From NCBI RefSeq assembly GCF_006088715.1, contig NZ_CP030771.1, positions 7,624,001-7,688,000 on the forward strand: a DNA stretch of 64,000 bases, given 5' to 3'. Origin of the DNA: Streptomyces sp. YIM 121038. Lineage in GTDB: Bacteria; Actinomycetota; Actinomycetes; Streptomycetales; Streptomycetaceae. The stretch's first letter is position 1. The number at the start of each line of letters is the position of its first letter. Of the stretch, positions 33,132 through 57,008 are shown piece after piece. A program made the translations under genes and the position numbers. Under the pieces are notes generated by a model. The model was not told the origin of the DNA and did no database searches. It saw only the letters and a list, made by a program, of their open reading frames with translations.

Positions 33132-33142
33132 GGCAGGACACC

Positions 33143-38814: not shown

Positions 38815-38816
38815 GC

Positions 38817-38844: not shown

Positions 38845-38901
38845 CATATGTGGACAGTGGCGTGACCGACCGCGTGGCCGGTGGACCGGAGATTTTCCCG
38901 G

Positions 38902-39962: not shown

Positions 39963-39979
39963 GCTGCTCCTCCTGGCTC

Positions 39980-40327: not shown

Positions 40328-40409
40328 GTGTCCTCCAACCCGATTGGATGAGGCACCCCAGCGGGCTGTACTTGGCGGTGCGCCCGCCGGGGCCTCGGCC
40401 GTCCTCTTT

Positions 40410-40714: not shown

Positions 40715-40827
40715 GGGGCGATGTTGGGTGCCACGGACGGACGTATCTCCCCCTGCGTCAGAGACAGTTGAGACGTTCGCCGCTACGGTGCGAGAAGGCC
40801 CAAACGTCCACACCGAGGGGGTTGACA

Positions 40828-41583: not shown

Positions 41584-41725
41584 GTGCTGCCTGGGGCGCA
41601 CAGCGACACGTGACAACGCATGACCAACAGCGGCCGGGAACGGGCAGAAACAGCAGGTGAAGGTGACCAACCTCCGCAGGTCCGGAGGGTTTCGTGAGTC
41701 GGGCCAGGCCCGGGGGGTGTGCCGG

Positions 41726-43567
41726 TCAGGCCAGGGGGGACAGGTCGGCCCGGGGGGTGGGGGCGTAGGAACGGCCCGTGAGCAGTTCCGCCACCGCTAT
41801 GCCCGAGACGCGGGTCGCGCCGTGGGTGATCAGGTGGACGGCGCCGAGGGGGACGCCCGTCGGTACGCCCATCTCCACGACGAGGGCGTCGGGGCGGGTG
41901 CGCAGGAGGCGGGCGAGGGCCTCGGTCATCCAGCGGTGGCGGGCCGCGTCGCGGACGACCACCACCAGGGCGCGGCCGTCCGCCGGGGTGAGCGCGGCCC
42001 GGTCCAGGACGTCGTCGAAACCGTCGAGCTCCAGTTCCGTCAGGCGCACGGACGTCGTGTCGGGCCGCAGTGCGCGCAGCGGGTCGGCCACGCCCCAGGG
42101 GGTGCCGCCGTCGACAGCCGGGTTCATCACGGGGGACAGCTCCACGACGTGCGGCGCGACGGTGAGGGGGAGGAGGGGCTCCGCCGGGGTCCCGGGGACG
42201 CCGCCCGCCGTACCTGCGTTTGCCGCCGCGCCCGCCCAGTCCGTGCTGCCCGTGCCTCCCGCGGCGTCCCCCGTGCTCGCCGTACTCGCCGTACTCGCCG
42301 TGACCAGGCCTCCCGGAGCGCTCGCCGTGTTCCCGGTCCCGGAAGGTCCCGCCGTGCCCGCCGTGCCCGCCGTGCCCGCCGTGCCCGCCGTGTCCGTGGC
42401 GCCCGTGGTCCGTGGGAAGCCGATCGTGGGCAGGGCCCCGGCGGAGTCCGCGCGGGCCGTGGCCTCTTCCTCCCTCCGCGGCCGCACCCGTACCGCGCGC
42501 CTCGCCGCGATCAGGCCGATGTCGGAGCGGAGGCCGGTGGCCGTGGCGGCCCGGGAGCGGGCTCCTGACCAGGTGGCGAAGGACCGGACGCGGGTGCTGG
42601 CCTCGGTGAGGCGGTCCTCGGGGAGGGTGCCGTCGCGCACCGCCCGTACCAGCGCGCCCGTGAGGAGGTCGACCGTCGACTCCTCGGCGCGCTCGCCGCC
42701 GACGCACACCGCGTCGACGCCGCCGGCGACGGCGCGGACCGTGGCGCCGTCGATGCCGTAGCGGTCGGTGACCGCGCCCATCTCGATGCCGTCGGTGACG
42801 ACCATGCCGTCGAAGCCGAGCTCGCCGCGGAGCAGGTCGTTCAGGATGCGCGGGCTGAGCGTCGCGGGCAGCGCGGGGTCGTACGCGGGCACGAGCAGGT
42901 GCGCCGTCATGACGGCCCGTACGCCCGACTCCATCGCGGCGATGAACGGCGGCAGCGCCGTGCGGGCGATCTCCTCGGCGCCGCCGGTGACGCGCGGCAG
43001 GCCGAAGTGCGGGTCCACGGACGTGTCGCCGTGGCCGGGGAAGTGCTTGGCGCAGGCGGCGACCCCGGCGGACTGGAGCCCCCGGATCCAGGCGGCGGTG
43101 TGCCGGGAAACGATGTCAGTGCGGGCGCCGAAGGAGCGCACGCCGATGACCGGGTTCAGCGGGTTGGAGTTCACGTCGGCACTCGGCGCGTAGTTGAGGG
43201 AGACGCCCGCCGCGTGCAGTTCGCGCCCGATGTCGCGGGCGACGCGCTCGGTGAGGTCGATGTCGTCCACGGCGCCGAGCGCGAGGTTGCCGGGCCGGGA
43301 CGCGCCCGTCCAGGCCTCCATGCGCGTCACGTCGCCCGCTTCCTCGTCGATGGCGACGATCAGGTCGGGGTTCTCGGCGCGCAGGGCGGCGGTGAGGCCC
43401 GCGACCTGCTCCGGGTCGACGATGTTCCGGCCGAAGAGGACCACGCCCCCGAGCCCGGCGGCGATCCTGCGGCGCAGCCAGTCGGGGACCTCGGTGGTGC
43501 CGACGAAGCCCGGCTGCAGCACGGAGTTGGCCAGCCGCGCCAGCCTCGGGGGACTGCTCGAAACCAT
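41726..43567 (-). CDS. Glycoside hydrolase family 3 beta-N-acetylhexosaminidase
   Basis: A 613-residue GH3 enzyme that releases N-acetylglucosamine from chitin or murein fragments. ATG 43567 follows GGAGG. The barrel holds GGVVLFGRNI, IAIDEEAGDVTRMEAW-type substrate loop, CAKHFPGHGDTSVDPHFGLP (NagZ-type His-Asp pair) and VVTDGIEMGAVTDRYG with the nucleophile Asp. Residues ~395-475 are a Thr/Ala/Gly repeat (TAGTAGTAGTAG, TASTASTAS), then a second C-terminal domain ending AELLTGRSYAPTPRADL. No signal peptide is apparent. DasR-like sites lie upstream. Confidence 0.9.
   Translation of the reverse strand: MVSSSPPRLARLANSVLQPGFVGTTEVPDWLRRRIAAGLGGVVLFGRNIVDPEQVAGLTAALRAENPDLIVAIDEEAGDVTRMEAWTGASRPGNLALGAVDDIDLTERVARDIGRELHAAGVSLNYAPSADVNSNPLNPVIGVRSFGARTDIVSRHTAAWIRGLQSAGVAACAKHFPGHGDTSVDPHFGLPRVTGGAEEIARTALPPFIAAMESGVRAVMTAHLLVPAYDPALPATLSPRILNDLLRGELGFDGMVVTDGIEMGAVTDRYGIDGATVRAVAGGVDAVCVGGERAEESTVDLLTGALVRAVRDGTLPEDRLTEASTRVRSFATWSGARSRAATATGLRSDIGLIAARRAVRVRPRREEEATARADSAGALPTIGFPRTTGATDTAGTAGTAGTAGTAGPSGTGNTASAPGGLVTASTASTASTGDAAGGTGSTDWAGAAANAGTAGGVPGTPAEPLLPLTVAPHVVELSPVMNPAVDGGTPWGVADPLRALRPDTTSVRLTELELDGFDDVLDRAALTPADGRALVVVVRDAARHRWMTEALARLLRTRPDALVVEMGVPTGVPLGAVHLITHGATRVSGIAVAELLTGRSYAPTPRADLSPLA
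42240..42420 (-). repeat. In-frame triplet-type repeats in the GH3 gene
   Basis: Nine-base units (GCCGTGCCC and GCCGTACTC types on the plus strand) repeat several times each, coding TAG and TAS runs in the linker between the catalytic and C-terminal domains. The reading frame is kept. Linker expansion by slippage is likely. Confidence 0.75.
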
Positions 43568-43633
43568 GCCGGGACCTCCGATGGGACAGGGGAGCGGGGG
43601 GTGGGAGAGCGGGCCGACACCGTGCTGCGCGAC

Positions 43634-43668
43634 TTGGTACAGGCCAATCGGATGTTGGCTCAGGCCAT
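43634..43668 (-). promoter_or_regulatory. Two DasR-like sites upstream of the GH3 gene
   Basis: TTGGTACAGGCCAAT (from 43634) and TTGGCTCAGGCCATT (from 43655) are near-identical and start 21 bp apart, two helical turns. Read on the gene's strand they are TGGCCTGTACCA and TGGCCTGAGCCA, matching the DasR core TGGTCTAGACCA at 9 and 8 of 12 positions. They sit 67-101 bp before the start. DasR controls chitin and N-acetylglucosamine genes in Streptomyces, which suits this enzyme. Confidence 0.5.
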
Positions 43669-44008
43669 TTGGGACTGTCAAGGCATACGAACCGCCAGGA
43701 AACGGAAGGTGAACCAGCACATGGCGCAGCGGCCTGACCTCGGCCGAAGCGCACCCCGGCGGCCCGGCCGGGCCTCACCCCGACATCTGGCCCAACCCCG
43801 CCCCGGCCCCCACGCCGAAGCCCACCCCACCCCCTCCCGCGCCCCAGCGGCCCTCGCCCCTCCCGCAGTCGCCTCCCCACCCCCAGAGGCCACCTTGTAG
43901 GACTCGCGTTCCCGCGATGGAATTCGTGTACGAGCCAGGGGCCGGGCTCCCGCCACAGCGCGGCGTCCCGCCCCGGGCCCGAACGCGGCCGAGCTGAGGA
44001 GGAACCCC
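43669..44008. other. Intergenic stretch between divergent genes
   Basis: This GC- and C-rich region carries runs of CCCACCCC/GCCCC triplets (43780-43900), then the leader of the 44009 gene with GAGGAGGA. No gene, RNA or convincing hairpin is seen; open frames on both strands look like composition artefacts. Confidence 0.5.
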
Positions 44009-45031
44009 TTGCGGCGGTACGAACTTGTCGGACGGCGTGACATCAGGCTGGTCACCGACGCGCCGGTGCCGGAGCCAGGACCGGGCCAGGTGCTCGTCCG
44101 CGTCCGCGCGTGCAGCGTCTGCAACCGCAGCGACCTCGCGTACTACCACTACTACGGTCTCAGGGAGCACTGCGCGACGGGCTGTTACGGCCATGAGATC
44201 GCCGGGGTCGTCGAGGCCGTCGGGCCCGGTGTCTCCCGCGTCGCGCCGGGGCAGCGCGTGTTCGTGCGCACCCCGCTGACGTCGGGCTACGCCGAGTTCG
44301 CCCTCGCGCGGGAGATAGCCGTCGGCGCGCTGCCCGACTCCGTGCCCTTCGAGCAGGGCTCGATGCTCCAGCTGCTGCCGCTCGCCGTGCACGCCACGCG
44401 CGGGGTGGAGTTGGGCGACCGGGTCGTCATCATCGGGCAGGGTCCGGTCGGCCAGATGGCGCTGCGGATGGCGGCGCGGCGCGGCGCCGCGCACCTCACC
44501 GCCGTCGACCTCGACGCATGGCGCCTGGAGCGTTCGAGCCGGGCGGGCGCCGACGAGGTGCGCCACGTGGACGGCAGCGCGTCCCGACTGGCGGCCCTCA
44601 AGGAGGAGTTCGCCGCGCAAGGGGAGGAGTACGACGTCGCGATCGACGCCGTCGGCACCCCCACCACCCTCAACGCCTGCGTGGGCCTGGTCAGGCAGAA
44701 CGGCCTCGTCGTGATGCTCGGCACCCACCACGTCGACACGCACGTCACCGTCGACCTCGTGACGTGGGAGCGCAAGGGCCTGCGCGTGCACAGCTCCGCC
44801 GAGCCCGTGGACACCGCGCGCGCCGAGGCGCTGGCCGTCGCCGAGCGCCTCGTCCACCGCGACGCCGGGCGGCTGCGCCTGCCCGACCTGCACACCCACA
44901 CGTACGCCCTCGACGAACTCCCCAAGGCCATGGAGCAGTTGTCCGCCAGCAGGTCGCTGCACCCCGACGCCGAGCGCGCCCCGTACGACGGGCCGCCGCC
45001 CGAGACCCTGAAGGTCGTCATCGTCCCGTGA
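44009..45031 (+). CDS. Zinc-type medium-chain dehydrogenase/reductase
   Basis: A 340-residue MDR dehydrogenase. The TTG at 44009 follows GAGGAGGA. Catalytic zinc ligands appear in CSVCNRSD and CYGHEIAG; the four-cysteine structural zinc loop is missing, which is common in sugar and cyclitol dehydrogenases. The coenzyme fold reads RVVIIGQGPVGQMALRMAARRG, and YDVAIDAVGTPTTLNACVGL follows. It probably oxidises a polyol or amino sugar hydroxyl, resembling enzymes of aminocyclitol pathways in shape. It is first of a two-gene unit with the 45045 gene, 13 bp downstream. Confidence 0.88.
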   Translation: MRRYELVGRRDIRLVTDAPVPEPGPGQVLVRVRACSVCNRSDLAYYHYYGLREHCATGCYGHEIAGVVEAVGPGVSRVAPGQRVFVRTPLTSGYAEFALAREIAVGALPDSVPFEQGSMLQLLPLAVHATRGVELGDRVVIIGQGPVGQMALRMAARRGAAHLTAVDLDAWRLERSSRAGADEVRHVDGSASRLAALKEEFAAQGEEYDVAIDAVGTPTTLNACVGLVRQNGLVVMLGTHHVDTHVTVDLVTWERKGLRVHSSAEPVDTARAEALAVAERLVHRDAGRLRLPDLHTHTYALDELPKAMEQLSASRSLHPDAERAPYDGPPPETLKVVIVP

Positions 45032-45044
45032 CGGCGGCCGGACA

Positions 45045-45998
45045 GTGAGGTGGGCGGTCGCCGGATACGGCGACGTCGTGGAGCGCCGGGTGCTGCCCGC
45101 CCTGCGGGCGCTCGGCGAGGAACCGGTGTACCTGTGGGGACGCGACCCGGACCGGGCGGCGCGCGTCGCCGCCCGGCACGGCGTGCGGGACTCCGGCAGC
45201 GACGAGCGGGGGCTGCTCCGCGACGAGGTGGGGGCGGTGTACGTCGCCACGCCCGTGGCGCTCCACGTCCCGCTGGCGCGCGCGGCGCTGGCGGCCGGGC
45301 GCCCGGTGCTCGTGGAGAAACCGCTGGCCGGAGGCCTGGACCAGGACGTGGGCACGGCCGCGGACCTGGAGGGCGGGCCGACCGCCGCCGTCGCCTACTA
45401 CCGCAGGCTCGCCCCGGCCGTGCGTCGCCTGCGCGCGGAGCTGGCGGGCTGGACGCCCGCGCGCGTGGACGTGCGGTTCCGCTGCGCCTTCGCCCCCGGC
45501 CCGGGCCATCCGATGCGCTGGCGCACCGACCCGGCCGTCGCGGGCGGCGGGGTGCTCGCGGACGCGGGCAGCCACCGGCTCGACCTGCTCGTCATGCTGT
45601 TCGGCCGCCCGGACGACGTACGCGGCCGGCTCACGGACCGCTTCCCCGCGGGCGCGGAGCGGCGGGCCGAGGTGGAGCTTGCCTGGGCATCCGGCGTACG
45701 GGCGCACGTCGTCGCGGAGTGGGGCGACGCGCCGCCCGTGGACCGGTTCGAGGTCGTGGGCGACGGCCGCACCCTGACGCTCGACCCGCTCGACTCGGGC
45801 CGCCTGTGCCTGCGCACGGCCCGCGGATCACGGGAGGTGACGCTGCCGCCCGCGCCCAATCCCCACCAGCCGCTGATCGCCGACTTCGTCGCGGCGGTCG
45901 CGGCCGGACGGCCGCCGGCGTGCCCGGTGCCGGACGCCCGGATCGTCGACGAGATCATCGCCGCGGCGGGGCGCCCGTGTCCCACCGGGTCCAGCTGA
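45045..45998 (+). CDS. Gfo/Idh/MocA family oxidoreductase
   Basis: A 317-residue Rossmann oxidoreductase. GTG at 45045 begins RWAVAGYGDVVERRVLPAL (a GxGxxV variant), then YVATPVALHVPLARAAL and the lysine motif LVEKPLAGG. The C-terminal sheet has VLADAGSHRLDLLVMLFG with the expected His. No signal peptide. It is coupled with the MDR gene; two dehydrogenases in tandem suggest sequential oxidation and reduction at different carbons of one sugar-like intermediate. The PhyH gene converges on it 28 bp downstream. Confidence 0.9.
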   Translation: MRWAVAGYGDVVERRVLPALRALGEEPVYLWGRDPDRAARVAARHGVRDSGSDERGLLRDEVGAVYVATPVALHVPLARAALAAGRPVLVEKPLAGGLDQDVGTAADLEGGPTAAVAYYRRLAPAVRRLRAELAGWTPARVDVRFRCAFAPGPGHPMRWRTDPAVAGGGVLADAGSHRLDLLVMLFGRPDDVRGRLTDRFPAGAERRAEVELAWASGVRAHVVAEWGDAPPVDRFEVVGDGRTLTLDPLDSGRLCLRTARGSREVTLPPAPNPHQPLIADFVAAVAAGRPPACPVPDARIVDEIIAAAGRPCPTGSS

Positions 45999-46026
45999 AC
46001 GTTCCTGCAGGGTCCGGCCGGGCGCC

Positions 46027-46884
46027 TCAGGCCCCGTCGTCCGCCGACCAGGGCCGCAGCCAGCGCGGGTCGGGCGTGTCGCCCGCGCGGATGAACCGCG
46101 TGTCGATGGAGAGCCGCATCGCGTCCGTCGTCGTGTCCAGGGACGCGTGGATGACGCTCGGCACGTGCACCATCAGGTCCCCGGCGGCGAAGTCCGCGTG
46201 CAGCCAGCGGCGGTCCAGGGCGCGCGCGGTGAACTCCAGGTCGTGGCAGATCTGCCGCCGGTCGTCCGGCCGGTCCGTGGTGTCGCGCAGCGGCTCGTAC
46301 TCCTCGGGGGACAGCGTGTGCGAGCCCTCCAGGTACACCAGCGCGCCCGAGCGCGGCGGGCAGTCGCCGACCGGGATCCACATCGTGACGACCCGGGGCG
46401 AGCCCTCGTCCATGTAGTCCAGGTCGACGTGGGCGCGCGAGGCGCGGGCGGTGCCCCGGTGGAAGTGGCGCAGGATGCGGCGCGGCAGCATCCGGGCGTC
46501 GCCCTCCAGCAGATCGGCGGCCAGCTTGGCGAGCTGGGGGTTGTCGAGGAAGCGGTCGAAGGTCTCGGAGCGCACGAAGGCGTGCGCCGGATGCCCGGCC
46601 ACGCCGTGCTCGGGCAGCTCCTTCGGCACCCGGCCGGAGAACACGCCCTCGCGCCGGGTGGTGCCCGGCGCGAAGTAGCCGCGCGGAAGCAGCGAGAAGT
46701 ACGCGGAGCGCAGCCGGAGCACCTCCTCCGGGTCGAGGAACCCCGGCAGATACAGATAGCCGTCGGCGCGCAGCCGCTCCCGCAGCACGGCGGGGTCCGG
46801 CAGGGGCTCCGTGCCGGTGGGGCGCAGCGGGCCGAAGAGCTCGGGCGAAAAGGGTATGGGTACGCCGTTCGACGAGAGGTTCAC
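46027..46884 (-). CDS. Phytanoyl-CoA dioxygenase (PhyH) family oxygenase
   Basis: A 285-residue Fe(II)/2-oxoglutarate oxygenase. Iron ligands are His and Asp in SRAHVDLDYMDEG and the distal His in DLMVHVPSVIHASLD; the 2-oxoglutarate Arg is in MRLSIDTRFI. The start of the domain reads LRADGYLYLPGFLDPEEVLRL. Members hydroxylate small natural products or acyl chains. Set between the dehydrogenase pair and the ligase/reductase operon, it most likely tailors the same product. ATG at 46884. Confidence 0.88.
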   Translation of the reverse strand: MNLSSNGVPIPFSPELFGPLRPTGTEPLPDPAVLRERLRADGYLYLPGFLDPEEVLRLRSAYFSLLPRGYFAPGTTRREGVFSGRVPKELPEHGVAGHPAHAFVRSETFDRFLDNPQLAKLAADLLEGDARMLPRRILRHFHRGTARASRAHVDLDYMDEGSPRVVTMWIPVGDCPPRSGALVYLEGSHTLSPEEYEPLRDTTDRPDDRRQICHDLEFTARALDRRWLHADFAAGDLMVHVPSVIHASLDTTTDAMRLSIDTRFIRAGDTPDPRWLRPWSADDGA

Positions 46885-47057
46885 GACGGAGTCCTTACGT
46901 CAGGGTCGACAGAGCAGTCCTTACGGGCAGGGGCCGAAGAGAGCGGCAGGGAGGGGCGGCGGCGCCGGGCCGAAGAGCCGCGGAGGGCTGCCGGAGGGCT
47001 CAAAGCGCCACCGGAGAGGCAGAGCTGATGACTAGTCAGAAGTGGACGCGGGCCGCG

Positions 47058-48206
47058 TCAGTAGACGCCCTCGACCGCCTCCTCGGTGCCCGTGAGGCCG
47101 TCGCGGTGGGGCCGGACCGCGGCCACGCCGTCCCAGGGGAACCACGGATGCGGCCCGGTCCTGATCGCGCTGTCCCGTTCGAGGAGGTGGGGCAGGAAGA
47201 GGTCTTCCAGGAGGGTGGTGACGCGCACCCGGCCGCGCTCGCCCTCGGCGACCTCGCGCCAGGGATCCTCCGGATCGACGACCTGGAGCACCGCGAAGGG
47301 CGGTGGCAGGTGGTAGGAGTGGCCGGTGCCCTCGGGCAGCCGGGGCGAGCCCGGCACCGCGTCGGCCTGGAGCGCGTGGCCCGCCAGCGTGTTGCCGTAC
47401 GTGTCGATCCACTGCACGCCGTCCAGGTGCTCCTGGCGCAGGAACGCGGCCTCGGCGGCGCTGCACGTGGTGCCGCCGGTGCACACCGCCCGGATGCCGT
47501 ACGTGTGCAGGGGACGCGGCAGGCGCATCGCGAGTTCGAGCAGCAGCCGCGAGGTGGTGAACAGCAGCGCCGGGCGCTCGGCGGTCAGCAGGGTGAGGGT
47601 CTGCTCCACCAGGTGGGAGGTGTACGCGTCGGCCTCGCCGCCCGCGCGCAGCGACGCCTTCACCCAGCGCGGGTCGAAGTCGATGGCGAACACCGCGCCG
47701 TGCCAGCTGTCCGCGAGCCCCTCCACGAAGTGCCCGTACGCGTGCGGGCCGCTCGGCGTCATCGCGAGCACGTCACCGCCCGCGACGCCGCGCGCCTCGA
47801 GGACCGTGCGGTAGACCTCGACGTCGTACGCGAGGCGCGTGACGTTGACGATCCGGCAGGGCGCACCGGTGGTGCCGCCCGTCTCGAACACCCGGAACGG
47901 GCGGTCGTGGTAGCCGCGCGGGCGCAGATCCAGGGCGCTCGCGGCCCGCAGCTCGCCCTTGTCGAACAGGCCGAACAGTTCGAGGGCGGCGAAGGAGTCG
48001 ACGTCCTTGAGCGGGTCGAAGCCCAGCCGGGGCAGCCGGGCCACCCAGAAGGGGGAGCCCGTCTCGGGCGAGAAGTGCCAGCGCATCATGCGCCGCGTCC
48101 ACGCGTCGAGATCCACGGCGAGCTCGGGCACGCGCCCACGCAGCGTGTCGTACAGGGTGGCGAAGGTGACCTGCGGGGTGTGCCCGTCGCGGGCCGTGGT
48201 CCTCAT
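47058..48206 (-). CDS. PaaK/LuxE-like adenylate-forming ligase
   Basis: A 382-residue acyl-activating enzyme. The ATG at 48206 follows AGGAGGAGG. The phosphate loop is FRVFETGGTTGAPCRIVNV, followed by AMTPSGPHAYGHFVEGLAD, a TSHLVEQTLTLLTAERP stretch, and TYGNTLAGHA at the place of the usual YG.TE motif. It is shorter than PaaK (~430) and like LuxE, which activates a carboxylate and hands it to a reductase. The next gene downstream, 48217 upstream in transcription order, is a LuxC-like reductase, so an acid-to-aldehyde pair is inferred. The acid is unknown. Confidence 0.78.
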   Translation of the reverse strand: MRTTARDGHTPQVTFATLYDTLRGRVPELAVDLDAWTRRMMRWHFSPETGSPFWVARLPRLGFDPLKDVDSFAALELFGLFDKGELRAASALDLRPRGYHDRPFRVFETGGTTGAPCRIVNVTRLAYDVEVYRTVLEARGVAGGDVLAMTPSGPHAYGHFVEGLADSWHGAVFAIDFDPRWVKASLRAGGEADAYTSHLVEQTLTLLTAERPALLFTTSRLLLELAMRLPRPLHTYGIRAVCTGGTTCSAAEAAFLRQEHLDGVQWIDTYGNTLAGHALQADAVPGSPRLPEGTGHSYHLPPPFAVLQVVDPEDPWREVAEGERGRVRVTTLLEDLFLPHLLERDSAIRTGPHPWFPWDGVAAVRPHRDGLTGTEEAVEGVY

Positions 48207-48216
48207 GGGCCTCCTC

Positions 48217-49431
48217 CTAGGAGTGCGGGGTCGGTGGCCGGTGGACGAAGAGGGAGCCGTCGGCGATCGCGCGGCCGGCCTCGGCGGTAGCGCCGAGCAC
48301 GACGGCGAACGGGAAGGGCACCTCGTGCCCGACGAGCGGATGCGCGACGTCGGACGCGGTGCAGTGGCCGTCGAGCAGGACGAGATGAGGGCGGACGAAG
48401 ACGTCGCCGCTCGCGCTCTCGACGACCGGCGGCTCGCGGGTGAGCAGCCGGTCACCGGCGCGCAGGAGGGCGCGGACGCGGGCGGTGGCGCGCTCGGCCT
48501 CGCCGGGGTCGCGGAAGGCGGTCAGCGGCCAGTCGGGGGCGGCCGGGTCGGGGGCGGCCCCCGGGTGCAGCCCGTCGAGGGCGGCGGCCAGGGCCTTCGC
48601 CACCGGCTCGGGCTCGGCGTCGAGACAGACCACCGTGCGGACGTTGCGGCAGAACCGGCCGGAGTCGGCGGCGACCAGCGGCAGCAGCCAGGCCACCGCG
48701 TCGTCCACCGGCAGGCCGGGCGGCACCAGGGCGCAGCCGCGCCCCGGCCCGTGCAGGGTGAGGGTGGGCGCGTCCCGCATCGAGGCGGCGAGCCCGGCGC
48801 CGCCGTACACGACGTGCCGGTCGGTGAGCTTCACCAGGCCGTGCAGATCGCGCTGGACGGTCGGATACAGGCCGATGCGTTCCGCCGGCCAGTCCGCCGC
48901 GAGCAGCGCCGCGACCAGGCGGGCCGCCGACAGCGGTTCGCGGCGGCTCGGCCGCACCCACACCGCAGCCGAGCGCTCGGCCTGGTCGAGCACGGAGTCC
49001 AGACAGGTGAAGGTGTTGCCGGGCAGCGCGACCAGGGCGAGCGCGTCGTCGCTGTCCGGGACCTCGCGGTGGGCCACGCCGTCGGCCAGCATCGCGCACC
49101 AGCGCCCGACCAGCGGGCCGGGCAGGCCCGCGCTCTCCCACAGCGCGCCGCGGAAGGCCGCCGCGCTCTGCGGGCCGAGGCCGCCCACGGTCACCGTGCC
49201 GTGCGCGAACAGGTCGAGGGCGGCGCGGATCCGGGCGCGGCGGTCGGTCAGCGGCGGCAGCGCCGTCCGGGCCGACCGCCACCAGCGGCGGTCGGCGTGC
49301 GCCACGATCTCCGGCACGAGCGCGAGGCGCCGCGCGGGGGAGCCCGGCAGGGCCGCGGTGTCCAGGGACTCCTGCCACGCGCCCCGGCGGAAGGCGGAGA
49401 CGACGGGCGGGCGCTGTGGCGCGGCGGTCAT
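48217..49431 (-). CDS. LuxC-like acyl-CoA/acyl-adenylate reductase
   Basis: A 404-residue protein of the aldehyde dehydrogenase superfamily resembling LuxC. It has an N-terminal ALVALPGNTFTCLDSVLDQ cofactor segment, VWVRPSRREPLSAARLVAAL, HVVYGGAGLAASM and the active-site-type Cys in SGRFCRNVRTVV. The C-terminus AHPLVGHEVPFPFAVVLGATAEAGRAI is ALDH-like. ATG 49431 overlaps the stop of the fusion gene (ATGA), so the fusion, reductase and ligase genes are coupled. It should reduce the activated acid to an aldehyde. Confidence 0.75.
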   Translation of the reverse strand: MTAAPQRPPVVSAFRRGAWQESLDTAALPGSPARRLALVPEIVAHADRRWWRSARTALPPLTDRRARIRAALDLFAHGTVTVGGLGPQSAAAFRGALWESAGLPGPLVGRWCAMLADGVAHREVPDSDDALALVALPGNTFTCLDSVLDQAERSAAVWVRPSRREPLSAARLVAALLAADWPAERIGLYPTVQRDLHGLVKLTDRHVVYGGAGLAASMRDAPTLTLHGPGRGCALVPPGLPVDDAVAWLLPLVAADSGRFCRNVRTVVCLDAEPEPVAKALAAALDGLHPGAAPDPAAPDWPLTAFRDPGEAERATARVRALLRAGDRLLTREPPVVESASGDVFVRPHLVLLDGHCTASDVAHPLVGHEVPFPFAVVLGATAEAGRAIADGSLFVHRPPTPHS

Positions 49432-51554
49432 GACAGCTCCTCCCGCAGGGCGGCGACCACCCGCGTCTGCTCGGCCCGGGTGAGCGTCGGATACAGCGGC
49501 AGGGCGATGTGGTGGCGCGCGAACCAGCGCGCCTGCTCGTACGGGCCCTCGGCGTCCGCGGGCGGTGCCGTGTCCGCGAAGTAAGGCTGGTCGCAGAGCA
49601 GATGGTCGTAGACCTCGCCCGCCAGGGCCACGCCGTGCCGCTCGCGCAGCCGCTTCTTCAGGAGCGGCCGGTCGACGGGCCCCTCCGGGTAGGCGAGGTA
49701 CTTGTAGTAGTTGCTGCGCGCCCCGGACGGCACCGCGTGGGCCCGCAGGCCCGGGACGTCGGCGAGCAGTTCGTCGTACGCGAGGGCGAGGTCGCGGCGG
49801 GCCGCCAGGGTCCTCTCGAAGCGCTCCAGGTCGACCGTGCCGACGGCGGCGTGCAACTCGCTCATGCGCCAGTTGCCGCCGGGCCGGTCGTGCAGCGTGG
49901 AGCCCTGTGCGCTCTTGCCGTGGTCGCGCCAGCGCCGCACCTGCTCGGCGTCGGCGGCGGCCGCGCCGCTGTCGGCGTCGGGCCGCGCGCAGGTGACCAG
50001 GCCGCCCTCGCCGCTGACCGCGACCTTCGTGGGGAAGAAGGAGAACGCCCCGAACCGGCCGAAGGAGCCCGCGAACCGGCCGTCCAGGGTGGACCCGAGC
50101 GCGTGCGCGGCGTCCTCCACGACCGGTACGCCCCGCTCCGCGCAGAGCGCGAGCACCTCGGTCAGGGACGGGGGCACGATGCCGCCGATGTGGACGGGCA
50201 GGACCGCCGCCGTGTCCGGGTGGCGGTCGAGCGCGGCCCGCAGCGCGTCCGGGTCCAGGCCGAGCCCGTCCAGCTCGATGTCCACGAACCGCACGGCCGC
50301 GCCCGCCCGCACGGCGGCCGCCGCCGTCGCGAAGAACGTGTTCACCGGCACGAGCACGGTGCGGTTCGTCACGCCGATGACCCGCAGGGCGATCTCCAGG
50401 GCCGCGGCGCCGGACGCCACGGCCACGCCCTCCACGCCCGTCCAGGTCCGCGAGAGCTCCTCGAAGCGGGCCAGCTCGGGGCCCTGGGTGAGGTGGCCGG
50501 TGGCGAGCGCCGCGTCCACCCGGTCGAGGACCGCGCGCCGGTCCGCGACGTCGAAGTGGATGCGCTGCGCGGGGACGTCGGCGGGCGCGGCGGCGGGCCC
50601 CGACAGGGTCCGCGTGAAGAAGGCGGCGGCGTGGCCCACGTGGGTGCCGTGGCCCATCGCCAGCTCGTGGACCTCCAGATCGCCCCCGGCCGACGCGTAG
50701 GCGCGGCGGACGGCGTCGGCCGCGGCGCGCGCGTCGGCCGGTTCCAGGAAGGAGTCGGCGGTGCCGTACTGGAGCTGGAGCGGGGCCGGGGCGAGCGCGC
50801 CGTACAGGTCGGCCAGGTCCGCGTACTCCAGGACGCCCGGCAGGACGGCACCTTCGTAGCCGGTGAGCAGCCGGGCGAACAGGGCCGGGTAGCTGCCCAG
50901 ATGGCTGGCCGCGCACACCGGCAGCGGCCGCGGCGCGAGCAGCGCGGAGTGCAGGGCGACCGCCGCGCCCAGGCTGTGCCCGAACACGCCGACGCGGCCG
51001 GGGTCGGCCCACGGATGCGCGGCGAGGACGTCCAGGGCGCCGAGCGCGTCGCCGACGAGGGCGCCGAGCAGCGAGCGGCCCGTCAGGGCGAAGGCGTGCG
51101 CGAGGAGGGCGCCCTCGTCCCGCCCCGCGCGGCGCTCCTCGTCGAGGCCGCCGCCGATGCCGTGCTCGAAGGACAGCGTGACGAACCCGGCGCGGGCGAG
51201 GTGCTCGGCGACGTTCCGGTCGGGAAAGTCCGGAGGCGTCTCGCCGGTGAGCTGTTCCAGCCGAGCGTTCTTTCCGCCGAGGACGAGGACCGCGGGGAGG
51301 GGCGGGCCCGCGTCCGCGGGGGCGGTGACGGTGCCGTGGAAGGTGCCGCGCAGGGGGGAGGCGAAGGCCAGCCGCTCGCGGCGCAGGCCGTCCGCGGTGG
51401 TCGTGGCGGTGCTGGTCGTGGTCAGGGGGGTGCGCTCCACGCGGGCCAGGCGCTGCACGACGGCGCGGAGTTCGCGGGACCAGGGGGTGTGGGGCGGGGC
51501 GAAGCGCAGGGCCGGCCCGGCGGTGAGCAGGTGGTGCAGGTGGGTGGTCTGCAT
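49428..51554 (-). CDS. Alpha/beta hydrolase fused to DegT/DnrJ/EryC1-type aminotransferase
   Basis: One continuous 708-residue frame (ATG 51554). Residues ~1-335 are an alpha/beta hydrolase (LPAVLVLGGKNARLEQLTGE, nucleophile elbow GVFGHSLGAAVALH, catalytic-type Asp in YGTADSFLEPADA and His in LAMGHGTHVGHA). Residues ~345-708 are a PLP sugar-type aminotransferase (VASGAAALEIALRVIGV, PVVEDAAHALGSTLDG, and the lysine in FSFFPTKVAVSGEGGLV). Each half is near full length for its family. The joined activities suggest ester or amide processing linked to amination. The operon continues with reductase and ligase, so aldehyde-to-amine conversion is plausible. Confidence 0.85.
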   Translation of the reverse strand: MQTTHLHHLLTAGPALRFAPPHTPWSRELRAVVQRLARVERTPLTTTSTATTTADGLRRERLAFASPLRGTFHGTVTAPADAGPPLPAVLVLGGKNARLEQLTGETPPDFPDRNVAEHLARAGFVTLSFEHGIGGGLDEERRAGRDEGALLAHAFALTGRSLLGALVGDALGALDVLAAHPWADPGRVGVFGHSLGAAVALHSALLAPRPLPVCAASHLGSYPALFARLLTGYEGAVLPGVLEYADLADLYGALAPAPLQLQYGTADSFLEPADARAAADAVRRAYASAGGDLEVHELAMGHGTHVGHAAAFFTRTLSGPAAAPADVPAQRIHFDVADRRAVLDRVDAALATGHLTQGPELARFEELSRTWTGVEGVAVASGAAALEIALRVIGVTNRTVLVPVNTFFATAAAAVRAGAAVRFVDIELDGLGLDPDALRAALDRHPDTAAVLPVHIGGIVPPSLTEVLALCAERGVPVVEDAAHALGSTLDGRFAGSFGRFGAFSFFPTKVAVSGEGGLVTCARPDADSGAAAADAEQVRRWRDHGKSAQGSTLHDRPGGNWRMSELHAAVGTVDLERFERTLAARRDLALAYDELLADVPGLRAHAVPSGARSNYYKYLAYPEGPVDRPLLKKRLRERHGVALAGEVYDHLLCDQPYFADTAPPADAEGPYEQARWFARHHIALPLYPTLTRAEQTRVVAALREELS

Positions 51555-51600
51555 GCGGGTTTCGTTCGCTCCTGTGGGTGCGGGTGGTGGGCCTTCGCGG

Positions 51601-51697
51601 GGCGCCCCGGGCCCGCCCCCTCTCCGAAACCAGGGGCTCCGCCCCCGGACCCCCGTCGATCGGCCTTCGGCCTCGTCCGCACGCCGGACGGGCTGGG
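51601..51697 (-). repeat. Dispersed intergenic element, inverted partial copy
   Basis: Read on the minus strand this gives CAGCCCGTCCGGCGTGCGGACGAGGCC, then GGGGGCGGAGCCCCTGGTTTCGGAGAGGGG, the same order of blocks as at 5096 and 12974. It lies between the radical SAM gene's stop and the fusion gene's start, so the two may be separately transcribed. Confidence 0.65.
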
Positions 51698-51751
51698 GCC
51701 TCGGGCGAGGCCGAAGGGTGCGAAGGGGCGGGCGGGTGGGAGGAGGACGGC

Positions 51752-52957
51752 TCAGACGAAGTCGGCGTGCAGGGTCTCGGGGACCTCGATCGCGTACGCG
51801 TCCAGCGCCTCGTCCAGCTTGATCTGCCCCCGCTTGAGCAGTTCGAGCAGCTCGTTCTGCGGCCGGTAGAAGCAGGACTTGCAGAGGTCCGTGCGGCGGG
51901 GGTTGGAGGCCTCCCACTCGGCGCGCGGGCCGCCCTCGAGGACCTGGGGGTACCCGAGGTCGACGACGTCGCCGATGCGGTAGCGGCTGTTGAGGTGCAC
52001 CTGCGGGCACGGGTACAGATGGCCGTCGGCCCCGACGGCGGTCACGAAGCGGCTGTAGTGGCAGCGCTCGAAGTCGCCCTCGACGTCGTCGACCTGGTCC
52101 ATCGGGCCGCGGTCGAGCTTGGGCACCGACACCTCGAAGGCGTCCGTGGACAGCGCGGCGGCCGCGACGAGGGAGTCGGAGATCTCCGCCATGACGGTCT
52201 CGATGGTCTCGTGCCCCATCGCGCTGTAGAACTCGGGCTCGAAGCGGACGTAGTGCGCCCCGGACTCGTGGGCTATGCGGGCCGCCGACAGGATCTCGCG
52301 GTAGTTCTGCATCGTGATCACGTAGTTGAACCCGATGCGGAAGTCCGGTGCGACGGCGTTCTGGCGCAGGTGGCCGATGTTGTCGATGAACTTCGAGAAC
52401 GTCTGCTCACGGTCGCGCGTGATGTCGTTGAACGTGGCTTCCGTGCCCGCGTTCATGCCGACCCGCACCCAGGTGTGGGTGTTGATGACGGTGTCGGCGA
52501 CCTTCGGGCGGCCGAGCCGGGAGCCGTTGGTGATCAGGCCGATGTGCAGGCCCACGTCGTGCCCGGCGTTGCAGATGTCCGCGTAGCCCGGGTGGATGGT
52601 GCACTCGCCGCTGCCGCAGAAGGTCACCGCGCGGCCGTCGTTCTCGGCGAACTCCTTGAGGAGGTTGATCGCCTTGTCGGTGGTGATGGAGTCCTTGAAC
52701 GAGAACAGGTCGTAGAACTGCTCCTCGTTCGGTGAATGGAAGTTGCAGAAATTGCAACGCATATTGCAGGCGCCCATGATGCCGATCCGCATGTGGACCG
52801 GTTTGATCTCCTCGTCCGCGACGAATCGGCGGAGCAGATCGCCGTGGGCCAGGACTTTCTGCGGGGAGTGTGCTTGATCGAGACTGACGTCGGGGAGGCC
52901 CTCGCCGTTCCGGGGCGCGGCCATTGCGATATCGCGGGCACCTTCAGTGCTGTTCAC
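51752..52957 (-). CDS. Radical SAM protein with C-terminal SPASM-like cysteines
   Basis: A 401-residue radical SAM enzyme. The GTG at 52957 has GGAGG five bases upstream. The cluster motif is CNMRCNFCNFHSP (CxxxCxxC, ~residues 63-70). FCGSGECTIHPGYADICN follows, matching the GGE-type SAM contact, and the C-terminus has LYPCPQVHL and DLCKSCFYRPQNE, an auxiliary-cluster pattern. It precedes the fusion/reductase/ligase operon. Substrate unknown; the small-molecule gene neighbourhood argues against a peptide-modifying role, as no precursor peptide gene is visible nearby. Confidence 0.88.
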   Translation of the reverse strand: MNSTEGARDIAMAAPRNGEGLPDVSLDQAHSPQKVLAHGDLLRRFVADEEIKPVHMRIGIMGACNMRCNFCNFHSPNEEQFYDLFSFKDSITTDKAINLLKEFAENDGRAVTFCGSGECTIHPGYADICNAGHDVGLHIGLITNGSRLGRPKVADTVINTHTWVRVGMNAGTEATFNDITRDREQTFSKFIDNIGHLRQNAVAPDFRIGFNYVITMQNYREILSAARIAHESGAHYVRFEPEFYSAMGHETIETVMAEISDSLVAAAALSTDAFEVSVPKLDRGPMDQVDDVEGDFERCHYSRFVTAVGADGHLYPCPQVHLNSRYRIGDVVDLGYPQVLEGGPRAEWEASNPRRTDLCKSCFYRPQNELLELLKRGQIKLDEALDAYAIEVPETLHADFV

Positions 52958-53198: not shown

Positions 53199-54800
53199 TC
53201 ACGGGCAGGGGTACGCGAACGTGTCCTCGAAAGTCCGGTACGTCTTCCCTGGCCCGCCGCGCCCTTGCGCCGGGTACTCGATCACCGGTATGGGCTTGCA
53301 GATCGGCCACTGATGCGTCTCGGGCGACTGCTCGAAGGCGTACGTACCCGCCGCGCCCTGAAGGCAGTTGGTGCACAGCAGGCGCCCGTCCCGCTCGACG
53401 ATGCCCGCGTTGATGAGGGTGTTGTACACGTCGTCCTTCGTGGGCGTGCGCGCCGGAGCCGGCGTCCTGTCGTCGCTCCCGGGCTTCTCGTTTGCTTCGG
53501 AGTACGACCTGTCGTACGCGTTGGACAGCAGCGTGAACGCGTCGTGGTACATGATCGCGTAGCCGTCGTCGAGGGGCTTCTCGCCGATGCCGTACCGCTC
53601 GTCGAGGTCGTGGAAGACCCGCAGGAAGCCGCCGAGGCCCGCCGGGGCGCCCTTGGCGGGCAGTCCGCGCGGGGTCCACCAGGCAGGTGTGACCGAGGCC
53701 GCCGCGACGATCCTCGTCCTCGTTTCCCGCAGCATCCCGGTGAGTTCGTCCGTGGTCAGCGTCGGCTCGAGGCCGATGCCGACTTTCAGGATGCGCACGG
53801 GGCTGCGGCGGTCGCAGGACGACTCCTGGGACAGGCGTTTCACGAGGGCGGGCAGGTCCTGGTCGCGGCCCGCGAAGAACACCGTGTCGGATTCGGTGAG
53901 GCAGATCTTCTGGGCGGCGGACTGGAATCGCTGCGGGATGCCGGCGGCGGGCCCGGTCGAGCCGAGGTAGGAGGCCGAGCGCTGGCGCAGCCCGTAGGCC
54001 TTGCCGAATTTCTTCTGGAGCAGCCGGTGGAGATTGCGCGAGTACACGTCGTCCGGGCGGCTGTCGTATACAAGGAACCCTTTCCTGTCGCCCGGGTTCC
54101 GCTTCAGATAGTGACCGAGCGCGTCCACGAACATGCTGTTGTTCGGTGAGGTCTTGAAGAAGTACGCGGCGTTCATGTCGGCGGAGGTGATGACCGGGCC
54201 CACGGTCGCGATGCGCCGCGCGCTCAGCTCCTTCATCGCGTCCCGGGTCTCGGGCGTGCTGCTCGGCAGGCCCATCACCCCGACGAGCGGCGAGCGCCGG
54301 TCGTCCACCAGAGCGGTCAGGTCGTCGACGACGGGCCGCCACTGGTCCAGGTCCTTGCCGTCGGGGGCCAGCAGGAGCTGGTAGTGCGGCCCGCCGCTGC
54401 TGTTGGCCTTGAGCTGGGCGGCGTGCGCGCCCGCCAGGGCACGGCGGATCATCGCCGCCGTCATGGCGCTCGCCTCGTCCGACGTGAACGGCATCATCAG
54501 CGCGATCCGCCCGTACGGCATGGGGGCCTGCCCCTGCTCGGGGTCCTCCCAGGCGCGCTCGACCCGGGCGTTCTCGTCGGCGACGGCCCGGATCAGCCCG
54601 TCGAGGTCCTCGTCCCCGTCGAAGGCGCTCTCCGTGACGCCCACGCACTCCCCGCCGTGCTTGCCCAGTCCGCCCGGGCAGTCCTCGGGGCGCAGCAGCA
54701 GATAGACGACCACGCCGACGGCGATCAGGACCAGCGGCACCACGATCGCGACGGCCTTGTCGAGGGGGCCGAACCCGTTGCGGCGGCGGCTCAGACGCAT
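53199..54800 (-). CDS. Membrane-anchored type I periplasmic-binding-like protein
   Basis: A 533-residue protein with one N-terminal helix (LDKAVAIVVPLVLIAVGVVVYLLL, residues ~13-36) and a large outside part. The fold resembles branched-chain amino acid binding proteins: RIALMMPFTSDEASAMTAAM, PLVGVMGLPSSTPETRDAMK, ARRIATVGPVITSADM, YFFKTSPNNSMFVDALGHYL and DGYAIMYHDAFTLLSNAYD. Several Cys could form disulfides. No permease or ABC ATPase is nearby; it follows the P-loop protein gene by only 6 bp. It may sense a ligand outside the cell for that partner. Confidence 0.75.
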   Translation of the reverse strand: MRLSRRRNGFGPLDKAVAIVVPLVLIAVGVVVYLLLRPEDCPGGLGKHGGECVGVTESAFDGDEDLDGLIRAVADENARVERAWEDPEQGQAPMPYGRIALMMPFTSDEASAMTAAMIRRALAGAHAAQLKANSSGGPHYQLLLAPDGKDLDQWRPVVDDLTALVDDRRSPLVGVMGLPSSTPETRDAMKELSARRIATVGPVITSADMNAAYFFKTSPNNSMFVDALGHYLKRNPGDRKGFLVYDSRPDDVYSRNLHRLLQKKFGKAYGLRQRSASYLGSTGPAAGIPQRFQSAAQKICLTESDTVFFAGRDQDLPALVKRLSQESSCDRRSPVRILKVGIGLEPTLTTDELTGMLRETRTRIVAAASVTPAWWTPRGLPAKGAPAGLGGFLRVFHDLDERYGIGEKPLDDGYAIMYHDAFTLLSNAYDRSYSEANEKPGSDDRTPAPARTPTKDDVYNTLINAGIVERDGRLLCTNCLQGAAGTYAFEQSPETHQWPICKPIPVIEYPAQGRGGPGKTYRTFEDTFAYPCP

Positions 54801-54806
54801 GCTTCC

Positions 54807-57008
54807 TCACAGTTCGGGCAGCGGCAGGGGGCGCTTGTCGCGGGCGGCGGCGGGCCAGGTCCTGGCGGCCTGGCCGAGCACGGCGCGCCACGTGCGGTGG
54901 CGCAGCGAGAGGAACGCGAGCTCGGCGCCGATGTCCTCGCACAGGTCGGCTTCCGGCTCCGCCGTGGCGTCGGACAGGTACCACAGGCCGTGCAGCAGCC
55001 TGTTGATGCAGCGGTCGATCTCGTCTATGTCGCGGTAGCGGTCGTCGTGCGCGCCCGCCGCCATCGCGGCCCGCTCGTCGTCCCAGTCGGCCGCGGGCGG
55101 TGCCGGGGCCGTCGCCGCGTACCGCAGACAGGACAGCCAGCGCAGCGCGCTGAGCCGGTCCTGCTCGGCCTGGAACTCCTCGGAGAGCGCGGCCACCACG
55201 GTCTTCGCGTCCCCGGCGGCGAGCGTGTGCCGCAGCGCGTCGGCCTCGCTGTCCTCGCCGCGCGTGGTGTGGTGGCGGCGCAGGAAGCCGTGCATCTCCT
55301 GCCAGCCGCGGCGCGACTCGGTGCCCCGCGAGGTGCGCCGGGCCTCGTGCACGAGCAGCGTGTGCAGCAGCGGATCGGCGGCGAGCGGCCGGTCCTGCGG
55401 GGTGTCCCGCTGCCAGTGCTCGGCCTCCAGATAGTCGGCGGCGGCGTTCGCGGGCAGCTGCTCGGGGCCCTCCAGGCGCAGATGCGCGGCGAGGGCCTGC
55501 GCGGCCGTGCTGTCGCGGGCCAGCGAGAGCGGGACGAGCCTGGCGCGCTGGTGCGGCGACGGAAGCAGCCGCTCCAGGATCGCCGCGGACACCGGGCGGC
55601 CGTCCCTGGTGGTGAGGTCGAGCAGATCGCGCGGGGCGAGCGGGGCCGCGGCGGGCCCGGCCCGGGACGCGTGCTCCAGGACGGCGTCGCACAGCACCCG
55701 GCAGGCCAGCGGGTGCCCGCCGGTCAGGGTGTGCAGGGCGGACGCCAGATACGGGTGCAGCGGGGCGGACGCGGCGTCCAGCATCAGCAGGACGTCGTCG
55801 CGGCTGAGCGGGGTGAGCTCCACCACGACCAGGCCCGCGGACGGCGCGTGCCCGGTGCGCCGCCAGCCCGTGGTCGTCACCAGGTCGGGCAGGTCGCGGT
55901 GGCGGGCCTCGGCGGCGTCCGGGGGCGCGTCGCCGAGGCGGGTGGCGACGACCACCAGCGGGTCGTGGTGGGCGGCGCCGGGCCGGGCCCGGTACTCCAG
56001 GACGAGGTCGAGCAGGCGCGCCCCGGCCGGGGAGTGCGTGTTGTCGAGCAGGGCGAGCGGACGCGGGTCGCGGTTCAGGCGCTGCCACCGGGTGCGGGCG
56101 GCGGCGACGTCCTCCAGGAAGGCGTGTACGAGGGTCTGCTCGGCGGCGTGCCGGTAGTCGCCGCCCCGGTGGAACCAGTCGGCGAGGCGGACGAGCCCTT
56201 CGAGCCCGCCGGGGCCGCCCCGGCCGTCGGGGGCGGCGCCGGCGGCTTCGGGCGTCTCGGCGTACCGGTCCTGGTACCACTGGCGCAGCGGGGCGCTGCC
56301 GCGGGCGCGGGCGTACCGCTCGAAGTACTCGGCGAGTGCGGCGTGCACGACGGCGTGGGCAGCACCTCCGGCCCTGGCTGAGCCCCCGGCCTTGGCTGAG
56401 CTCCCGGCCCTGGCTGAGCCCCCGGCCCCGTCCGCGCCCTCCACTCCGGCTGTGGGCCCCGCTCCAGCCGCGGGCCCCGCCCCGGCTTCTGGCCCCGCCC
56501 CGGCCGAGGTCCCGGCCCCGGACTCCGCCCCCGCGAGCCGCGCCCGCACCCGCGTCTCCCACGTCTGCGCGACCCCCGGCTCCGGCCCCGACTCCAGGCG
56601 GCAGGCGAGCAGCAGCCGGGCGATGCGCGCGGTGGCGCGGGCCCGCTCCGCGCCGTCGGCGTACCCGCCGTACGCGGCGATCAGGCCCGGCAGGAGCAGC
56701 GGGAAGCGCCGGCTCAGGCCGGGGGCCAGGGAGCACGCCAGCTCCTCCAGGAGCTCGACGACGAGGCCCTGCGCCGCGGTGTCGACGCGGGCGAGCGGAA
56801 GGCGCCCCGCGTAGTGCCGCTCCAGGGCCGCGAGGACGGCGGTGCGCCCCATGCCGTGCCGCCCGGTCAGCAGCACCAGCGGCAGGTCCTTGTCGTGCTC
56901 CCAGGGAACGCGGGCGCGTTCGGCGTAGGCGAGGCCGGTGAGCCGGGGGACGAGGTGGTGCAGAAGCGGGTCGCGTGCGTACAGCCGAGGCGTTTCGGAT
57001 GTGTGCAT
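54807..57008 (-). CDS. STAND/AAA-like P-loop protein with Arg in place of the Walker Lys
   Basis: A 733-residue protein (ATG 57008). Its P-loop reads LLTGRHGMGRTAVL: the lysine of GxxxxGK(S/T) is Arg55. Later motifs include LALLDNTHSP (Walker B-like, ~320), LVVVATRLGD, VVELTPLSRDDVLLML and TGGHPLACRVLCDAVLE, the usual order of STAND-type NTPases. Residues ~190-240 are an Ala/Gly/Ser repeat encoded at 56340-56530. A long helical C-terminus follows. It pairs with the membrane protein downstream. Reduced nucleotide hydrolysis is possible. Function unknown. Confidence 0.7.
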   Translation of the reverse strand: MHTSETPRLYARDPLLHHLVPRLTGLAYAERARVPWEHDKDLPLVLLTGRHGMGRTAVLAALERHYAGRLPLARVDTAAQGLVVELLEELACSLAPGLSRRFPLLLPGLIAAYGGYADGAERARATARIARLLLACRLESGPEPGVAQTWETRVRARLAGAESGAGTSAGAGPEAGAGPAAGAGPTAGVEGADGAGGSARAGSSAKAGGSARAGGAAHAVVHAALAEYFERYARARGSAPLRQWYQDRYAETPEAAGAAPDGRGGPGGLEGLVRLADWFHRGGDYRHAAEQTLVHAFLEDVAAARTRWQRLNRDPRPLALLDNTHSPAGARLLDLVLEYRARPGAAHHDPLVVVATRLGDAPPDAAEARHRDLPDLVTTTGWRRTGHAPSAGLVVVELTPLSRDDVLLMLDAASAPLHPYLASALHTLTGGHPLACRVLCDAVLEHASRAGPAAAPLAPRDLLDLTTRDGRPVSAAILERLLPSPHQRARLVPLSLARDSTAAQALAAHLRLEGPEQLPANAAADYLEAEHWQRDTPQDRPLAADPLLHTLLVHEARRTSRGTESRRGWQEMHGFLRRHHTTRGEDSEADALRHTLAAGDAKTVVAALSEEFQAEQDRLSALRWLSCLRYAATAPAPPAADWDDERAAMAAGAHDDRYRDIDEIDRCINRLLHGLWYLSDATAEPEADLCEDIGAELAFLSLRHRTWRAVLGQAARTWPAAARDKRPLPLPEL
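56340..56530 (-). repeat. In-frame GC-rich repeats in the P-loop protein gene
   Basis: Units such as CCCCGGCC(T/C)TGGCTGAGC and GGCCCCGCCCCGG repeat here, coding GPAAGAGP and AGGSARAGSS-type stretches. The frame stays open; the segment is an Ala/Gly-rich linker inside the NTPase region. Confidence 0.7.

Follow-up and report, generated by a model that had tools for sequence, protein, structure and literature searches.

A co-inherited seven-gene set found in three phyla, with a putative pathway to a small aminated, sugar-like metabolite

The window analysed here (the whole 64,000-nucleotide stretch G000:C1:7624001-7688000, from an 11.1-Mb genome whose closest relatives in the locus scan described below are Streptomyces) carries seven genes that fill positions 44009-52957. 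We found these genes to be a co-inherited set recurring in three phyla, and on balance it is probable that they encode a specialised pathway to a small aminated, sugar-like metabolite, in which an acid would be reduced to an aldehyde and a DegT aminotransferase domain would aminate a ketone made by a dehydrogenase. The original prediction, made from the letters of this stretch, had placed all seven genes at the limits where we find them, and had read them as a cluster for acid activation, reduction and transamination; this is supported in part, as the co-inherited set is real and acid reduction is the best reading of two of its products, while the LuxC and LuxE labels given to those products do not hold. 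The seven genes are:

44009..45031, plus strand: adh, zinc-type alcohol dehydrogenase, sorbitol/threonine-dehydrogenase-like (Pfam ADH_zinc_N 4e-16, ADH_N 1e-13)
45045..45998, plus strand: gfo, Gfo/Idh/MocA sugar-type dehydrogenase (Pfam GFO_IDH_MocA_C3 1.6e-17, GFO_IDH_MocA 1.4e-12)
46027..46884, minus strand: phyH, PhyH-type Fe(II)/2-oxoglutarate oxygenase (Pfam PhyH 5e-18; nearest solved relative SnoN, 2.8e-6)
47058..48206, minus strand: EhpF-type adenylating enzyme (the ligase), predicted to activate a carboxylate (PDB match to EhpF; conserved loop)
48217..49431, minus strand: aldehyde dehydrogenase (ALDH)-fold reductase, predicted to turn an acyl-adenylate into an aldehyde (AlphaFold2 model, Foldseek, conserved Cys261)
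49428..51554, minus strand: fusion of an N-terminal alpha/beta hydrolase and a C-terminal DegT/DnrJ/EryC1/StrS aminotransferase (DegT profile 7e-78)
51752..52957, minus strand: radical SAM/SPASM protein, first gene of the minus-strand set (Radical_SAM 6e-17, SPASM 7e-5; the start may be 53074)

The seven genes are co-conserved; the original prediction had named a failure to stay together in related genomes as its refutation, and this is not what we found. The radical SAM protein served as query in an exact-peptide-pattern scan of 84,980 species genomes, which yielded 35 loci, and in 21 of these all seven genes lay within one fetched stretch of no more than 21.2 kb (L006-L014, L017-L019, L021, L022, L024, L025, L027, L029, L030, L034 and L035, with signs of frame breaks in L017, L018 and L021). 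Three further genomes have the complete set divided between places: in Streptomyces sp. WAC 01529 (L016) the adh-gfo pair and a glycosyltransferase family 2 (GT2) gene are at 1.01 Mb of the record and the other genes at 7.36 Mb, more than 6 Mb apart; in S. netropsis (L020) gfo-adh lie about 14 kb beyond phyH; and in a Nostocales metagenome-assembled genome (MAG; L032) the genes are spread over two contigs with the break inside the fusion gene. Some other loci are cut by contig ends, L015 being a short contig with pieces of the fusion, reductase, ligase and phyH genes on another, L023 stopping after phyH, and L026 missing the fusion at the end of its contig, while L031 and L038 are remnants and L033 is decayed. 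The carriers include Streptomyces, Nonomuraea, Nocardiopsis, Dactylosporangium, the Nostocales MAG and Bradyrhizobium, and because the set recurs across three phyla in this way its association goes beyond chance. In an even sample of 295 genomes of the same genus, the radical SAM gene was found in 9 and the reductase gene in 7, all 7 being among those 9; six of these reductase genes were on the same contig as the radical SAM gene, within about 4 kb, and one was on a separate contig. Elsewhere the set was rare, turning up in 3 of 345 genomes of the class including the window genome, in 1 of 244 cyanobacterial genomes and in 1 of 297 from the Bradyrhizobium order (the single finds in the latter two groups were the centre genomes). 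Between the seven proteins, pairwise distances were correlated in all 21 comparisons (r 0.909-0.975, with 15-18 chosen sequences per family), which fits co-inheritance. Spread on plasmids was considered and rejected, with only 6 plasmid records found, at 24-27% identity.

Three distant loci from Firmicutes (L036, L037 and L040) were not counted as members, and no reductase pair was seen there. They carry a relative of the radical SAM protein (46-53%) beside a DegT enzyme and another radical SAM protein, with carrier-protein and acyltransferase matches in L040, an acyltransferase in L036 and BtrH-like matches below the cut-off in both, and apparently represent a separate, butirosin-like cluster type.

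Activation of an acid and its reduction to an aldehyde is the best reading of the ligase and reductase, because the ligase matches EhpF (PDB 3l2k/3hgu) at E 5e-43 over residues 32-382 of 382, amounting to near full-length homology, and its partner has a predicted ALDH fold with an invariant cysteine. The ligase loop ETGG[ST][ST]GxP is kept in all 18 sequences compared, and Pfam AMP-binding matched the protein only below its cut-off. For the reductase there was no convincing sequence match in the PDB and Pfam Aldedh reached only a sub-threshold 0.01, and its assignment comes from an AlphaFold2 model (mean pLDDT, the predicted local distance difference test, 87.8) with an ALDH fold (best Foldseek hit 1uxv, E 1.1e-17; 689 chains at E<=0.001), together with Cys261, invariant across 16 aligned sequences, and a GRFC motif present in 17/17. 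The two genes adjoin with a gap of 10 bases, the arrangement of an EhpF/GriC-type pair. The original prediction had named these proteins LuxC-like and LuxE/PaaK-like, and neither Lux name could be kept: a whole-genome search with the LuxC profile (PF05893) found five places, none of them in the window, and in their correct frames the reductase gave no LuxC match and the ligase no LuxE match at E<=0.1. The pair is better read, from homology and the predicted fold, as a putative acid-reductase pair like GriC/GriD, a likeness that rests on the EhpF-type ligase homology and the neighbouring ALDH-fold partner.

The fusion protein carries the PLP (pyridoxal phosphate)-lysine TK motif in its DegT part in 17/17 sequences, and its N-terminal hydrolase has GHSxG in 17/17, with aspartate and histidine positions that are also invariant in the alignment. 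Hydrolase families in Pfam matched the window protein only below their cut-offs, and several homologues are annotated as Abhydrolase_7, Abhydrolase_3 or DLH. A search of a 5.8-billion-sequence set gave 181 homologues at E<=1e-30, and most of the 120 listed have both domains as judged by length and coverage, shorter ones among those listed being P0165, P0216 and P0229 (630, 556 and 391 amino acids); this search accepts proteins of 0.55-1.75 times the query length only and so would mostly miss unfused relatives. The nearest structures to the DegT domain are ArnB, WbpE and perosamine synthase, mostly sugar-nucleotide ketone aminotransferases, with Fic25 also near, and the nearest NCBIfam model is PseC, below its cut-off. 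Two dehydrogenases predicted to be able to supply a ketone, adh and gfo, belong to the set (the GHE motif of adh and the EKP motif of gfo were each found in all 15 sequences examined), and because of these and the structural neighbours of the DegT domain we favour a ketone over the aldehyde as the site of amination. The PhyH protein has its HxD motif in 18/18 sequences.

The radical SAM protein has both CxxxCxxC and a SPASM domain, and the motif was found in 33 of the 35 loci. The two exceptions are L031 and L038, and a further locus, L058, also lacks it; all three have lost most of the set. The motif is retained in L026 and L033 despite a partial or decayed set. In L031, L038 and L058 the radical SAM homologues keep an open frame without the motif, and with much else kept in L038 and L058 its loss there may mark a new, non-radical role rather than decay. 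BlsE sequences were the only ones in the PDB matched at E<=0.001, and weakly (2e-5), the protein scoring 37.4 bits against a cut-off of 400 in the BlsE model (TIGR04466). BlsE decarboxylates cytosylglucuronic acid, according to an extract of PMC3715490. The radical rearrangement suggested by the original prediction is only one option among others for this protein. A viperin-type antiviral function was rejected, as the score fell short of the model cut-off (55.6 against 180 bits; PADLOC pVip E 3.9e-19) and the gene sits in a biosynthetic gene group; a RiPP (ribosomally synthesised and post-translationally modified peptide) maturase was also set aside, no maturase model reaching its cut-off among the 25 NCBIfam models listed, and no search was aimed at precursor peptides.

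The chemistry that we infer for the pathway would run as follows. Gfo, the zinc-type alcohol dehydrogenase or both would oxidise a sugar or cyclitol hydroxyl to a ketone, on which the DegT domain would put an amino group, and the fused hydrolase would take an ester or related group off the same intermediate. The radical SAM protein would abstract hydrogen from a sugar-like carbon, perhaps in a BlsE-like decarboxylation or a dehydrogenation, and the PhyH oxygenase would hydroxylate or epimerise. The ligase would make an acyl-adenylate, which its ALDH-fold partner would reduce at the expense of NAD(P)H in the way reported for GriC/GriD, and the resulting aldehyde and the amine could close to a cyclic imine or hemiaminal.

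By the features tested, the set is not a LuxCDE system, a BlsE-family pathway or the azasugar three-gene cluster. LuxCDE combines a ligase and a reductase with an alpha/beta hydrolase in a single operon, and the set resembles this fatty-acid reductase in outline but lacks any LuxC or LuxE profile match and has its hydrolase fused to an aminotransferase. It shares a radical SAM protein with the blasticidin S pathway, where BlsE acts on a sugar and is the sole PDB match noted above, but that match is weak and far below the equivalog cut-off, and the seven genes include no nucleoside genes. The azasugar cluster, as described in a part of PMC8382821, makes an amino sugar mimic with an aminotransferase, a phosphatase and a dehydrogenase; on that description an aminotransferase and a dehydrogenase occur in both, whereas no phosphatase family was found among the seven products here, and the set adds a radical SAM protein, the reductase pair and PhyH. 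Also among the closest known systems are GriC/GriD (grixazone), reported in an extract of PMC10179220 to convert an acid to an aldehyde, and EhpF (D-alanylgriseoluteic acid), in which an EhpF-type adenylating protein likewise stands next to an ALDH-fold partner; the set differs from them in its surroundings of radical SAM protein, DegT fusion, PhyH and sugar-type dehydrogenases. No description of the gene set or its product was found in the open-licence PubMed Central (PMC) literature, inhibitor and iminosugar topics included, and homologue names were generic or absent among the matches listed from the large sequence set (120 of 202 and 120 of 181). We regard the set as a specialised-metabolite gene cluster of known enzyme families in a combination that we did not find described.

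A glycosidase gene, not mentioned in the original prediction, stands next to the set:

41726..43720, minus strand: glycoside hydrolase family 3 (GH3), beta-N-acetylhexosaminidase-like gene, divergent from adh (Glyco_hydro_3 9e-69; functional start probably inside the open reading frame)

Its match to the PRK05337 beta-N-acetylhexosaminidase model (3.5e-51) fell short of the cut-off, with 174.3 against 207 bits. In 15 Streptomyces loci (L006-L014, L016-L019, L021 and L035) a GH3 gene adjoins adh or phyH, and in L031 one lies beside gfo/adh remnants; where further DNA was fetched, S. klenkii was found to have it next to adh, and S. netropsis at 1.7 kb from that gene. Two more close GH3 paralogues (78% and 61%) occur in the window genome, and Bradyrhizobium has two GH3 genes, one inside its cluster. 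A gene of the unrelated family GH84 was present in 2 of 9 genomes searched, both cyanobacteria, as a single copy near the cluster (immediately next to the radical SAM gene in one genome, and in the other following phyH at about 3.5 kb), and in Limnofasciculus it persists next to a decayed set. Because a glucosaminidase gene of one or the other family travels with the set in three lineages, this hints at a link to N-acetylglucosamine. No GH3 or GH84 gene was found in the fetched stretch of Streptomyces L030. Other sugar-type helper genes also recur: a GT2-like gene near the set in L018, L020, L022, L024, L028, L029 and L030 as well as beside the displaced adh-gfo pair of WAC 01529, a nucleoside diphosphate (NDP)-sugar epimerase-like gene adjoining phyH in Dactylosporangium, Bradyrhizobium and the Nostocales MAG, and ROK kinase genes (38-42% alike) that accompany the set in the Nostocales MAG, Bradyrhizobium and Protofrankia, with a partial one in Limnofasciculus. 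DMFA2_C-type and major facilitator superfamily (MFS) genes are near the set in several actinobacteria. In L028 (Actinospica) an LD-carboxypeptidase (Peptidase_S66) gene at 16609-17616, plus strand, directly follows the ligase gene, and would encode either a peptidoglycan recycling enzyme or an MccF-like immunity peptidase.

Several observations weigh against the favoured pathway and against the strength of the association on which it draws. L028 and L039 (Protofrankia, its reductase gene divided between contigs) keep five of the genes, with no adh relative genome-wide at E<=1e-40 and no gfo match in the fetched stretches, and so the dehydrogenases are either not strictly needed or replaceable. 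The Limnofasciculus set is mostly decayed and its radical SAM gene looks intact. The distance correlations are raised by common descent within Streptomyces, and the exact-peptide scan favours conserved neighbourhoods and, because of its patterns, reaches close relatives only. Of the 30 NCBIfam models that the radical SAM protein matched, each of the 25 listed gave a score far short of its cut-off, and the reaction of the protein is therefore left without assignment. For the sugar link, there was no GH3 or GH84 gene in the fetched stretches of L022, L024, L025, L028, L029 and L039 (Dactylosporangium, Nonomuraea, Nocardiopsis, Actinospica, the DX1 MAG and Protofrankia, the stretches of L025 and L039 stopping at contig ends), and a search of the whole window genome with one GT2 probe, run with no positive control, found no relative.

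That the seven are merely unrelated neighbours sharing a locus in one Streptomyces clade is very improbable; flanking genes (NACHT, the AAA-position protein and others) are indeed also kept in that clade, but the same seven occur without these flanks and in changed order in Dactylosporangium, Nonomuraea, Nocardiopsis, Bradyrhizobium and the Nostocales MAG, and WAC 01529 has retained even its displaced adh-gfo pair. The order proposed by the original prediction, in which an amino-acid-type or aromatic acid is adenylated and reduced and the aldehyde itself is aminated by a DegT enzyme of the Fic25 type, seems unlikely to us. It could draw on Fic25 being among the DegT structural neighbours and on GriC/GriD using an aromatic acid and EhpF belonging to a phenazine pathway, yet the nearest DegT structures are mostly sugar-nucleotide enzymes, the set comes with two sugar-type dehydrogenases and with sugar helper genes, and no carrier-protein or aromatic-acid family was found among the window products scanned, a subset of the open reading frames.

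Two other explanations take up the N-acetylglucosamine link. Possible, if rather unlikely, is that this sugar is a building block or removable cap, added by the glycosyltransferase, removed by the beta-N-acetylglucosaminidase and re-phosphorylated on release by the ROK kinase. Genes for each of these and the epimerase-like gene recur near the set, and Gfo with the WbpE-like DegT domain resembles the dehydrogenase/aminotransferase pair of the UDP-N-acetylglucosaminuronic acid (UDP-GlcNAcA) 3-amination pathway, WbpE structures being among the DegT matches; however, only 3 of the 8 genomes with a GT2-like gene near the set (L018, WAC 01529 and S. netropsis) have a linked glycosidase, the Streptomyces loci had no match to relatives of these ROK kinases, and the empty GT2 search of the window genome also counts against it. 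It is doubtful that the product is instead a mimic of N-acetylglucosamine that inhibits beta-N-acetylglucosaminidases, with the linked GH3 or GH84 enzyme serving as a protected version of the target. The set is indeed accompanied by two unrelated glycosidase families that share one named activity, GH3 beside adh/phyH in Streptomyces and, with one of the two copies in that genome, inside the Bradyrhizobium cluster, and GH84 near the cluster both times it was found, with the two GH3 paralogues present in the window genome. Against this, neither family was found in the six non-Streptomyces stretches or in L030, GH3 genes are common in actinobacteria, their linkage in Streptomyces could be one inherited event, and the Limnofasciculus GH84 gene remains beside a decayed set; NagZ-type enzymes are also usually dispensable in bacteria, so that self-protection may be unnecessary. 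The wider proposal of a mobile, core-enzyme-free class in actinobacteria, cyanobacteria and rhizobia, whose N-acetylglucosamine-mimicking amino-aldehyde or cyclic-imine sugars would block beta-N-acetylglucosaminidases while hosts were shielded by their own unrelated GH3 or GH84 enzymes, is likewise a speculative one that we think improbable.

In the window, adh and gfo are separated by 13 bases, and the fusion and reductase genes overlap by 4 bases, an overlap found again in 10 of the 14 loci compared; in the remaining 4, phyH or adh lies between the two or the reductase gene is placed elsewhere. The distance from the radical SAM gene to the fusion gene is 6-15 bases in 9 of these 14 loci and 197 in the window, where the gap holds a repeat:

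51664..51717, strand not assigned: inverted repeat with 16-nucleotide arms and a 22-nucleotide spacer, between the radical SAM and fusion genes (seen in the sequence)

Third-position GC is 0.94-0.97 for the adh, gfo, phyH and ligase open reading frames and 0.90 for those of the fusion and radical SAM proteins. The reductase frame was missed by the third-position GC scan and is supported by homology, conservation and the fold model; the true frame is the one ending at 48217 (48217-49431), and an overlapping 308-residue open reading frame at 48452-49378 is not the reductase gene. A scan for sigma-70-type promoters, which is ill-suited to high-GC actinobacteria, found none.

Upstream, 53199-60415 on the minus strand holds genes for a periplasmic-binding-like protein (below the cut-off), a large protein with no Pfam match and an NNH1-NACHT protein with repeats like leucine-rich repeats; these are kept alongside the cluster in nine Streptomyces loci and had no PADLOC match. 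On the other side, at 38727-41600, a tRNA-Leu(GAG) gene precedes about 3 kb with a lower GC content, possibly the remnant of an integrated element, in which two open reading frames examined had no Pfam match. Further off, 26649-34909 on the minus strand has two oxalate/formate-type MFS genes, an NDP-forming acyl-CoA ligase and a thiamine pyrophosphate (TPP) enzyme near the acetolactate synthase and oxalyl-CoA decarboxylase models, the matches of this group all being below cut-off, and looks like a small-acid metabolic set.

The favoured pathway would be a specialised-metabolite pathway with no polyketide synthase (PKS), non-ribosomal peptide synthetase (NRPS), terpene or RiPP core, travelling across phyla as one unit, and would pair acid-to-aldehyde reduction with sugar amination and radical chemistry. 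Cluster tools based on the usual core enzymes would likely overlook such a set. A functional link to glucosaminidases, if there is one, points towards natural inhibitors of enzymes of the NagZ or O-GlcNAcase type, and a glycosidase together with an EhpF-type reductase would then be a search hook for clusters that core-based tools likely skip.

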